Below, piece after piece: positions 51,257 to 57,909 of a DNA stretch of 64,000 nt (position 1 is its first letter; every line of letters starts with the position of its first letter). The stretch is from Xanthomonas sp. NCPPB 1128 (GTDB lineage: Bacteria > Pseudomonadota > Gammaproteobacteria > Xanthomonadales > Xanthomonadaceae): assembly GCF_001043115.1 (NCBI RefSeq), contig NZ_LFME01000002.1, positions 1 to 64,000 on the forward strand, in the 5' to 3' direction. The notes beneath the pieces are model-generated. The model saw only the letters and a list, made by a program, of their open reading frames with translations, ran no database searches and was not told the DNA's origin. A program made the position numbers and the translations under genes.

Positions 51257-53206
51257 TCACTCCGTGTAGCTCACCGACAGGGTCACGTTGGCGTAGCCGC
51301 CGCTGCCGCCGATCAGGCGGAAGAAGTAGCTGCCGGTCGCCGGCAGCGCCATCTGCACGTTCTGCGTGGTGCCATTGCGCACCGAGCTGTAGTCGGCATC
51401 GCTGCCGTCGGCGCTGGGTGCGCGCACCGCACGTACGTACAGCCGCAGCTGGCCGCTACCGCCCAGGGTGCGCAGTTGCAGGTTGCGCGCGTTGGCCGGG
51501 ACATCCAGGCGGTACAGCGGCCCCTGGCCCGCAGCGGCGGATAGCCGGCTCTGCGTGCCGCGCGCGATGGGCGTGGCGGTGGCTTCCTCGCCGCCGCCGC
51601 TGGCGCCGGCGGCGCGCGCGACCGCCTTGCCGGCATTGAGGATGCCGGCGCCGATGCGCAGCGTCGGCTTCACCGGGAACACGTTGGAGGTCTGGGTCAG
51701 GATGTCGCGCATCTGCGCGGTCGTCGGCACCGGCCGGCCGGCGCTGATCGCCGCGCTGATCGCCAGGGCGACGACGCCGGCCACGTGCGGCGAGGCCATG
51801 GACGTGCCCGCATAGCCGGCGTAGGCCGGCTGGTCCGGACCGTGGGTGCCGTTGTTGAGGGTGGACCAGACCAGGCCGGTGCGCACCGATCCCGAGCCGC
51901 TGGACGCATCGTTGGCGTACACGCCGCCGCCGGGCGCGGACAGGGTGATGGTGTTGCCGTAGTTGGAGTAGTAGGCACGACCGCCGGTGATGCCGGTGGC
52001 CGCGATATTGATGACGCCCGGGCAACTGGCCGGCGAATAGTTCGCGGCGTCGGCGTTGTCGTTGCCCGCGGCCACCACCACCACGCTGCCACGCGCGATG
52101 GCGCTGGCGATGGCGTTGGCGGTCACCGAGTCCTGCGCGCAGGAGCCGCCACCGCCCAGGCTCATGTTGATCACTTCCGCAGGGTTCGCGTTGTCGGGCA
52201 CGCCGTCGACATGGCCGCCGGAGGCCCACACGATGGCGTCGGCGATGTCGGCGGTGGTGCCGCCGCAATGGCCGAGCGCGCGGATCGGCAGGATCTTCGC
52301 GTCCGGCGCGATCCCGGCCATGCCGATGCCGTTGTTGGTGCGCATGGCGATGGTGCCGGCGACGTGGGTGCCGTGCCAGGAACTGTCGCTCTGTTGGCCC
52401 GGCTGCGCGCAGCCGCCGTTGGCGACCAGGTACTTGTCGTCGGTGGTCCAGTCGCCGGTGTCCCAGCCGCCGGCCACGCGGCCGTTGCTGGCGCGGCCGG
52501 ACATCAGCGCATCGCTGATGAAGTCGTAGCCGGCGCCGGCCAGCGAGGTATCCAGGTCCGGGTGCGCGGTGATGCCGGTGTCGATCACCGCCACCACCAC
52601 GCCCTGGCCGGTGCCGTACTGCCAGGCCGGCAGCAGGTCGATGCCGCCGCGGTTGGCATAGCCGGTGGTCTCCGGCGCCAACGTTTCCAGATGGCCGTCG
52701 GGCGTGCGCAGGTGCCATTGCACTTCATAGCCCGGATCGTTGGGGGCGGCGACGGCACTGGCGGTGGCCTGCGCGGTGCTGCGCACCGGCTTGAGGATCA
52801 GGTTGGGTTCGACGTGCGCCACCGCCGGGTCGGCGCGCAGGCTGGTCATCAGCGTCTCCAGTTGCGAGGGGCTCAGCGCGCGACTGGGCCGCACCAGGTC
52901 GGCGCCGGTGGCCAGCCGCCGTACCCGGCTCAGCGCCGGCGCGCTCTGCCGGTAGGTGCTGGCCCAGGTGCCGGCGCTGCTGCGCGCGGCCTGGTTGAGC
53001 GTGCTGGCCGCAGCGTTGCCATCGCGGCGCGCGCTGCTGCCGTCGCGATAGGTCACGATCAAGCCGTCGTAGACCGTGGATTGCCCAGGGCTGCCCTGGG
53101 CCAGGGCCGAGAAGCGCGGGGCGGACTGCGCCTGCGCGGCGCCGGCGAGCGCCAGGCCCAGCGACAGGGCGAGCAGGTTGCGGGAGAACGGTGCGGTGGG
53201 CGTCAT
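51257..53206 (-). CDS. Secreted S8 subtilisin-like serine protease B
   Basis: 649 residues, complete. Signal peptide 1-27 (ending AQAQ), inhibitor/prodomain to about 150, subtilase domain with Asp209 (VVAVIDTG), His278 (WHGTHVAG), oxyanion Asn382 and Ser469 (GTSMASPHVA), then a C-terminal PPC-like beta domain (about 555-649: PLYRLDVPANARNLQLRTLG). Same plan as the partial protease at 1-1775 and placed exactly 64 bp after the cassette-B adhesin gene. An extra segment near 425-460 (NDASSGSGSVRTGLVWSTLN) is absent from protease A. Processing of the partner adhesin is a hypothesis. Confidence 0.95.
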   Translation of the reverse strand: MTPTAPFSRNLLALSLGLALAGAAQAQSAPRFSALAQGSPGQSTVYDGLIVTYRDGSSARRDGNAAASTLNQAARSSAGTWASTYRQSAPALSRVRRLATGADLVRPSRALSPSQLETLMTSLRADPAVAHVEPNLILKPVRSTAQATASAVAAPNDPGYEVQWHLRTPDGHLETLAPETTGYANRGGIDLLPAWQYGTGQGVVVAVIDTGITAHPDLDTSLAGAGYDFISDALMSGRASNGRVAGGWDTGDWTTDDKYLVANGGCAQPGQQSDSSWHGTHVAGTIAMRTNNGIGMAGIAPDAKILPIRALGHCGGTTADIADAIVWASGGHVDGVPDNANPAEVINMSLGGGGSCAQDSVTANAIASAIARGSVVVVAAGNDNADAANYSPASCPGVINIAATGITGGRAYYSNYGNTITLSAPGGGVYANDASSGSGSVRTGLVWSTLNNGTHGPDQPAYAGYAGTSMASPHVAGVVALAISAAISAGRPVPTTAQMRDILTQTSNVFPVKPTLRIGAGILNAGKAVARAAGASGGGEEATATPIARGTQSRLSAAAGQGPLYRLDVPANARNLQLRTLGGSGQLRLYVRAVRAPSADGSDADYSSVRNGTTQNVQMALPATGSYFFRLIGGSGGYANVTLSVSYTE

Positions 53207-53270
53207 GGCGGTGTCTCTGCAGAAGCGTGGATAGGCGGAAGGGAAGGGGCGAACGGAGGCGCTGCGGACG

Positions 53271-57161: not shown

Positions 57162-57909
57162 GCAGATAGCCTTCGCCGCGCACCGCGCGCAATGGCAGCG
57201 CGCTGCCGGTGCGCTCCTGCACTTTCTGCCGCAATCGATGCAGCAACGCGTCCAGCCGGTGCGGATCGATCTCCAGCCCGGCGTTGCCGCCGAGCATGCC
57301 GATCAGCGCATCGCGGCTGACCAGGCGCCCGCGCGCCTGCCACAGGCTCTGCAGCACCTTGCGTTCGGACGCGGTCAACGGCACCGCCTGCCCGTCCGGC
57401 GCGAACAGGCACCAGCCGTCGTCCTGCAGTTGCCATTCCTCGCTGGCCGGCGCGCTCGGCCGCAGCATGCGCCGGGCCACGCTGAACAAGGTGGCGGCGA
57501 GGATCTCGATCTGCACCGGCTTGATCAGGTACGCATCCGCGCCCTGGACCAGCCCGCGCACCAGATCCGGCTGCTCGCCGCGGCCGCTGAGGATGACGAT
57601 GCCCATGCCGGGGCGACGTTCCTGCAGTTGCTGGGTCAGGGTGAAGCCGTCGCTGTCGGGCAGGCCGATGTCGAGCACGATCAGATCGAAACGCTGCGCC
57701 TCCAGCGCCGCCCACAGCGCCTGCGCGGTGCGCAGCGGCGTGACCGCGAAGCCGTGCCGCTGCAGGCCCGGCAGCAACACGCGGTCGCGCAGCACATCGT
57801 CGTCCTCCAGCAACGCCACCCGCAGTGGGGCGTTGGCGGCAGCGGCGAGCGGGGACGGGGTGGGATCGGAAACGCGGCTCACGAGACGGAATCGGCGAAG
57901 GGACGGCAT
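57142..57909 (-). CDS. OmpR-family response regulator, cassette B
   Basis: 255 residues. Receiver: LLEDDD (34-38), Asp80 in LIVLDIGLPDSDGF, VILSGRGEQPD, YLIKPVQIEI; winged helix LTASERKVLQSLWQ to RGEGYLLMPQ. Paralogue of the regulator at 5840 (shared VLLPGLQRHGFAV / LVPGLRRFGFAA, WCLF/WCLLSP linker and HRLD--LHRLR motifs). ATG 57909 or GTG 57882; neither has a well-spaced ribosome site. Cognate of kinase B by position. Confidence 0.9.
   Translation of the reverse strand: MPSLRRFRLVSRVSDPTPSPLAAAANAPLRVALLEDDDVLRDRVLLPGLQRHGFAVTPLRTAQALWAALEAQRFDLIVLDIGLPDSDGFTLTQQLQERRPGMGIVILSGRGEQPDLVRGLVQGADAYLIKPVQIEILAATLFSVARRMLRPSAPASEEWQLQDDGWCLFAPDGQAVPLTASERKVLQSLWQARGRLVSRDALIGMLGGNAGLEIDPHRLDALLHRLRQKVQERTGSALPLRAVRGEGYLLMPQER

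Follow-up and report, generated by a model that had tools for sequence, protein, structure and literature searches.

A conserved four-gene module of a two-component system, a YadA-type adhesin and an S8 protease in Xanthomonas and other genera of its family

Introduction

Why should a subtilase, a trimeric adhesin, a histidine kinase and a response regulator stand side by side, and why should they do so twice within one short stretch of a bacterial genome? The question is raised by Xanthomonas sp. NCPPB 1128, in which the stretch analyzed here (the window: the first 64 kb of contig C2, NZ_LFME01000002.1, of a 4.95-Mb assembly) holds two such cassettes, A and B. A sequence-only reading had claimed that both share one gene order and one set of strands (protease minus, adhesin minus, kinase plus, regulator minus), and this was confirmed together with the coordinates. 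As judged from gene order and gene trees, the four-gene module is real and conserved, is built of known parts, and is neither a chance arrangement nor a one-off duplication. An S8 protease clade is tied genetically to one clade of YadA-type adhesins, and both kinase–adhesin promoters bear three GTGA repeats spaced 11 bp apart; the link and the repeats are newly reported. It is fairly probable that the whole is a self-contained surface-colonization module, kept as a unit, in which a two-component system controls an adhesin and a dedicated protease. Among the matches listed from the open-access literature, titles and the beginnings of abstracts contained no account of the four-gene unit or of its operator.

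The two cassettes

In cassette A, the protease gene (3–1775, minus strand) encodes a signal-like N-terminus and an S8 subtilase domain, its C-terminus and PPC domain being cut off by the start of the contig. A spacer (1776–1839) separates it from the adhesin gene (1840–4224, minus strand; YadA head, stalk and anchor, type Vc), and a divergent promoter region (4225–4434) is common to the adhesin gene and the histidine kinase gene (4435–5790, plus strand), which encodes a hydrophobic N-terminal half, an HDFNN H-box and HATPase_c. The response regulator gene (5840–6550, minus strand; receiver and Trans_reg_C, OmpR/PhoB type) is convergent with that of the kinase. Cassette B consists of the protease gene (51257–53206, minus strand; signal-like N-terminus, S8 subtilase and PPC), a spacer (53207–53270), the adhesin gene (53271–55625, minus strand; again YadA head, stalk and anchor of type Vc), a promoter region common to adhesin and kinase (55626–55748), the kinase gene (55749–57161, plus strand; a membrane part modeled as six helices, HDFNN H-box and HATPase_c) and the regulator gene (57142–57909, minus strand; receiver and Trans_reg_C), which overlaps the end of the kinase gene by 20 bp. 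According to Pfam, PF03895, PF05658 and PF05662 for the YadA anchor, head and stalk are above cut-off in both adhesins, the S8 domain PF00082 is present in both proteases and PPC in protease B, and both cassettes have a kinase with HisKA and HATPase_c and a regulator with Response_reg and Trans_reg_C, the HisKA match of kinase B (E 4e-4) falling under its cut-off.

Protein identity between A and B is 39% for the protease, 45% for the adhesin, 41% for the kinase and 50% for the regulator (all E < 1e-70), and by this similarity all four gene pairs are paralogous. Between the adhesins, 172/258 aligned positions (67%) agree in the C-terminal part, vs 195/477 (41%) in the N-terminal one. The HDFNN H-box is indeed common to both kinases, as had been claimed. 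The spacers, described earlier as identical, agree in their length of 64 bp but not in sequence, only 24/64 bases being the same, and the argument for a recent duplication from spacer identity was rejected on this ground; spacer length among orthologues is 57–112 bp. Likewise, the PPC tail reported for both subtilases is seen in protease B, but that of protease A is not visible because the gene runs off the contig, and a full-length orthologue of 628 aa (L038) has it. Related adhesin leaders (CCAGCCCG) had been proposed as well; what the two adhesin promoters have in common in the present comparison is the set of repeats described below.

An inherited unit within and beyond the genus

A kinase search of 20 genomes of the genus gave 43 rows. 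All 27 rows scoring at least 600 bits (15 of type A and 12 of type B, including the two of the window; the other 25 were fetched as L034–L058) have the complete arrangement. The full module was found in just one of the 16 weaker rows (<600 bits), all of which were read: L072 in genome G001, a third module type with 38–48% identity to A and B. In the remaining 15 (L059–L071, L073 and L154, among which L067 comes from another family of the order) neither adhesin nor protease was found. In trees of 26–27 of these modules, A and B separate cleanly for all four genes, and pairwise distances correlate at 0.95–0.98 overall; the loci L058 and L074 were left out of these trees and of the period scoring below.

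Does the module extend beyond Xanthomonas? A kinase profile search of 198 genomes of the family gave at least 63 rows outside the genus, and in at least 27 of the 63 listed, spread over ten genera, the module protease stands divergent to the kinase at 0.5–16 kb (27/37 rows of at least 460 bits vs 0/26 below, among the matches listed); one of the 27 has a kinase–protease gap of 510 bp and one of 16 kb. Of 22 modules fetched from nine other genera, 20 chosen from the 27 rows with a divergent protease and two (L327 and L331) found earlier, all 22 contain the four genes, the adhesin with its anchor, laid out exactly as in the window; in 22 of 23 kinase loci from other genera the regulator is convergent with the kinase. 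With 27/27 in the genus and 22/22 outside it, the chance arrangement that the sequence-only reading had set against its own proposal fails.

In the trees of kinase, regulator and protease, A joins a g42 module, B a g30 module and the third type five g30 modules (support 0.98–1.0), and A and B never form a clade, a reading taken from splits, midpoint-rooted protease trees not being used to date duplications. Distances among 29 modules correlate at 0.915 for kinase and regulator, 0.860 for kinase and protease and 0.865 for regulator and protease, with 0/999 permutations as high in a test that ignores shared ancestry. Thus, the claim that the four genes are an inherited unit is borne out by the unbroken genus count, by recurrence in nine other genera and by three agreeing trees. 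On this evidence all three types represent paralogous modules of old standing; their versions predate the genus or moved as wholes, and they are not a local duplication.

The adhesin–protease pair

Adhesin and protease form the wider core of the module. The 20 genus genomes contain 53 YadA anchors; the protease is directly behind 47 and absent from 6, and the kinase also adjoins 28. Counted from the protease side, 47 of 48 high-scoring genus proteases sit behind a YadA anchor, and 0 of the 21 weaker S8 matches from these genomes do. A third adhesin group of the genus (e.g., on contig C44) accounts for 18 of the 47 pairs. Its member in the window genome (G000:C44:15418-17626, L168) is a third YadA-type adhesin with a 2750-aa frame, then the same kind of S8 protease, and in the stretch read there no kinase or regulator of the module type was found.

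Outside the genus, 91 of 97 testable proteases closely follow a YadA anchor of equal orientation, at a distance of −4 to 322 bp, although the protease profile was built from adhesin-linked proteases only and therefore favors linked ones. The proteases tested were the top 101 of 129 rows among the matches listed, of which 4 were cut by contig ends and 6 were without anchor; 70 seeds went into the anchor profile, and two of these (L165 and L166) come from the same places as the tested loci L215 and L218. In three of the six without anchor (L280, L285 and L296), a clade protease is, by eye, divergent to a frame with YadA-head-like repeats, which is a second geometry of the pair; these were not added to the count, which was kept at 91/97.

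Elsewhere in the order, one further family has an anchor in 5 of its 7 loci, in one case beyond the protease; three other families have none in 5 loci together, and none was found in two weaker loci of the own family. That all YadA adhesins have the protease was considered and ruled out: 0 of the 30 best-scoring anchor loci of the family search carry it, and so the link concerns one adhesin clade.

Promoter repeats and the putative operator

How might the two halves of the module be coupled? The kinase–adhesin intergenic regions of A and B have in common three GTGA units at 11-bp pitch, first recognized by eye. The putative operator of A (4380–4412, minus strand) has three GTGA-like repeats matching at 11/12 letters, and that of B (55712–55744, minus strand) three exact ones. 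With at most one mismatch, the window contains two sites alone, 4387–4412 (one mismatch) and 55719–55744 (exact), both in adhesin promoters; 100 shuffles of the window had a mean of 0.20 sites, and one of them reached two. When periods 7–15 were compared, period 11 was best in 11/11 B promoters and best or tied in 15/15 A promoters (tied in 3). L042 (9/12 letters) is included in the A promoters, and L049, L054 and L057, whose promoters are shortened because the adhesin start is called further upstream, were retained. The observed repeat score was reached by 0/1000 shuffles for both window promoters and one B orthologue; for two orthologues of A the numbers were 1/1000 and 12/1000.

Across the 4.95-Mb window genome the exact three-unit form has a single match, at B, and since about 0.6 occurrences are expected by estimate, this match alone proves little. 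A slightly longer B form has 12 matches among the 20 genus genomes, all of them in B promoters, with one match per genome wherever a kinase B row is present (12 genomes); its reversed control has one match, and it was not found in G012, where adhesin B and protease B are kept and kinase and regulator are gone. In other genera, the longer form is present at 13 of the 23 best-matching kinase loci (shuffles: mean 0.04, largest 1) vs 0 of 14 weaker-matching kinases. A stricter pattern from other-genus promoters, which shows the scarcity of other sites, has 10 matches in the 198 genomes, all of them 10–136 bp upstream of a module kinase, and 0 in the reversed control. Upstream of the regulator genes, and likewise in the initial 3 kb of the adhesin locus on C44, at most 9/12 letters of the repeat are matched.

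OmpR/PhoB-type regulators bind direct repeats at about 11-bp pitch, and the GTGA repeats are probably the operator of the module's regulator. The C-terminal helices of the regulator are near-alike in A and B (HRLDSMVHRLRSKVQ and HRLDALLHRLRQKVQ) and differ in the third type (HRLEMLVHRLRRKAA). The earlier claim that the kinase controls production of adhesin and protease gains support from the promoter repeat tracking the kinase. In the third type the repeat is absent.

Proposed mechanism and its rivals

What would the module do? A multi-pass inner-membrane kinase would read a membrane or envelope cue, although no Pfam domain besides the kinase domains is above cut-off in either kinase and no sensor domain was recognized, and would phosphorylate the convergently encoded OmpR/PhoB-type regulator. 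The regulator would then bind the three GTGA repeats, a site seen in the sequence, in the divergent kinase–adhesin promoter and so set the output of the YadA-type adhesin, of the S8-PPC protease behind it and probably of the kinase too. The adhesin would go to the outer membrane and the protease would probably leave the cell by type II secretion, the route that has been reported for likely relatives. Being dedicated to this adhesin clade, the protease would trim or release the adhesin, or act on whatever the adhesin holds, and old paralogous modules would let different heads answer different cues. A hairpin in spacer A (1813–1835), GC-rich with a T-rich tail and terminator-like, is a possible attenuator that would set the ratio of adhesin to protease; by eye, similar inverted repeats occur in several other module spacers.

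Several findings weigh against this proposal. On the side of the pair, most adhesin–protease loci do without the kinase: among 19 other-genus pair loci read irrespective of kinase the full module is present in 2 (L327 and L331), and the 10 loci read for the genus's third adhesin group have neither kinase nor regulator. The sequence-only reading had named as damaging the case in which most genomes carry these adhesins without the neighboring genes. The inherited unit stands with a qualification here, in that the pair mostly lacks the kinase and other YadA adhesins lack the protease (0/30). Proteases with no adhesin found in reach occur in G009, L303, L307 and L313, and the bias of the non-genus protease profile has been mentioned. 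Gene-tree correlation inside A or inside B is just 0.45–0.86, a weaker agreement than that overall.

On the side of control, the GTGA patterns were chosen after the promoters had been seen, and their weight rests on the scarcity of other sites. In the promoter of the third type (L072), period scoring found no 11-bp repeat and there is no GTGA box, 995/1000 shuffles reaching its score; at 10 of the 23 best-matching kinase loci in other genera the repeat is not reached; and the stricter other-genus pattern has no match in the window genome. Because no sigma-70-like promoter was found at the B promoter and the hairpin in spacer A resembles a terminator, co-transcription of adhesin and protease is not assured. 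The kinases also differ, hydropathy giving seven membrane segments in kinase A vs three in kinase B, for which reason the six N-terminal helices running into the H-box domain in the model of kinase B (mean predicted local distance difference test score 73, predicted template modeling score 0.41) are a count from a model of modest quality. In a fold search the catalytic half was matched, CckA (5idj) being best among 50 rows, so that the membrane part is left without a named relative.

What does the protease cut? Its order of parts is a signal-like N-terminus, a propeptide-like region, S8 and PPC, the protease model (mean predicted local distance difference test score 66) and the kinase model being used for domain order only. 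The motifs DTG, HG[ST]H and GTSMA, which we take to be the Asp, His and Ser motifs of S8, are aligned in proteases A and B. The solved chains closest to the clade are the 'Alkaline serine protease' 9i67/9grg, presumably StmPr1, and the extracellular proteases AprV2 and BprV; the match between 9i67 and the L225 protease, itself encoded behind a YadA anchor, has 728 bits over 356 residues. That these relatives are exoproteases is a further point against the proposal, and because of it a target outside the module is about as possible as processing of the adhesin, so that the two options, processing the adhesin and digesting its target, are near even. Xylella PrtA was dropped as a relative, since it is described as trypsin-like.

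The strongest rival is that the protease is a secreted exoenzyme that breaks down proteins of a host, a competitor or the matrix where the adhesin has fixed the cell, the adhesin being co-produced only and left untouched. In the parts of the accounts available, StmPr1-3 cut collagen, fibrinogen and fibronectin (PMC10808757), and XCV3671 is listed as a type II-dependent substrate (PMC12292232) and contributes to virulence (PMC12280403), XCV3671, like XAC3545, being a candidate member of the clade. A generic exoenzyme, however, need not be tied to one adhesin clade, as this protease is (47/48 and 91/97, with 0/21 for weaker S8 matches), and we place this rival somewhat short of an even chance. 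The more specific reading of the proposal itself, an unnamed family-wide device for making and shedding an adhesin, composed of a two-component pair, a private 33-bp operator, a type Vc adhesin and a dedicated trimming or releasing protease, with several old paralogous versions in each genome that differ in their heads, is tentative and stands clearly below even.

Alternatively, the kinase and regulator may serve another target, with the GTGA repeats autoregulating the kinase only and adhesin and protease as passengers. The repeats do lie close to the kinase start, 22 bp in A and 4 bp in B (the latter speaking against the proposal as well), the called start of kinase B being so near to them that the true start may be further in; and the fifteen weaker-matching kinases stand without adhesin or protease. 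On the other hand, the four genes occur together across nine other genera, and the searched repeat forms were found nowhere else in the genomes searched, so that no other target of that form was seen; this alternative is improbable. A simple segmental duplication inside the genus, kept by chance, would fit the distance of about 46–58 kb between A and B in most genus genomes with both on one contig (the exception being G017, with >400 kb), but fails because A, B and the third type each join modules of other genera in the three trees and because A and B are just 39–50% identical, and it is highly improbable.

Should the proposed surface-colonization module hold, a loose pair of common genes becomes a defined, testable unit. 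Through the private repeat, the signal that turns on attachment would become directly accessible, and insulation and cross-talk could be tested cleanly between paralogous modules of a single genome. Since an S8 clade with solved exoproteases is tied to an adhesin clade, the function of those proteases deserves a second look.

Comparison with known systems

Cognate proteases that mature or release a surface protein under regulation are familiar from other systems. NalP and SphB1 are subtilase passengers with a beta-barrel of their own, and LapG is a periplasmic cysteine protease gated by LapD and cyclic di-GMP. The module protease would share with these the general plan, but it is of the S8 type, shows S8 and PPC domains only, and its adhesin is a trimeric autotransporter (for LapA/LapG, see PMC3032545).

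Closer to the module, strains of X. arboricola carry three XadA homologues apiece, and behind every one a serine protease of the S8 family is described (PMC12448352), so that an S8 protease behind an XadA-type adhesin is a pair already known there. In the accessible part of that account the neighbors are given for few strains, two-component systems appear for other functions only, and there is neither an operator nor a family-wide linkage. In X. citri, XAC3545 (a type II exoenzyme protease) and XAC3546 (xadA) have consecutive locus numbers and are both lowered in a hemK mutant; the available text describes no kinase or regulator with them (PMC8999716), and they resemble the kinase-free pair on G000:C44. 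The Burkholderia cenocepacia cluster BCAM0218-0228 is similar in that trimeric adhesins stand beside genes for histidine kinases and regulators, by which their control has been suggested (PMC3404963). It differs in having three adhesins, two kinases and three regulators in another order, with the word 'protease' absent from the main text of that account, whereas each module here has a single gene of every kind (adhesin, kinase, regulator and protease). Stenotrophomonas StmPr-type exoproteases, whose solved chains 9i67/9grg match the module S8 clade closely, have been studied as cytotoxic exoproteases, and no link to an adhesin gene is described in the parts available of the accounts (PMC10808757; PMC2643945).

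Decayed, partial and outlying forms

Some loci retain parts of the module. A B-type module in G001 (L058, G001:C1:4596858-4616619) is decaying, with three stops in the kinase and one in the protease, and its promoter repeats are still exact. In G012 (L155, G012:C1:457329-477300), adhesin B and protease B are kept and kinase, regulator and GTGA repeats were not found; on the sequence, this is a natural loss of the whole regulatory half. A contig scan with a two-sequence kinase alignment gave generic patterns, and of its 80 loci just L074 was used, from Xanthomonas populi, where all four genes match and the frames are short and broken.

Two more kinase groups of the genus (L059–L066 with L068, and L069–L071 with L073 and L154) are kin to the module kinase and stand without adhesin or protease, the regulator of the second being on the same strand. 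At G111:C2:124094-127821, a module-type kinase and protease are divergent and just 510 bp apart, which leaves no room for an adhesin. Another locus (L317, G009:C1:1147000-1163000) has a clade protease, and the search for YadA anchors found none in its genome, which belongs to the genus. Finally, in another family of the order, L401 (genome G294) has a protease with a YadA-type anchor upstream and weaker kinase and regulator matches nearby, and it is perhaps an outlying module.

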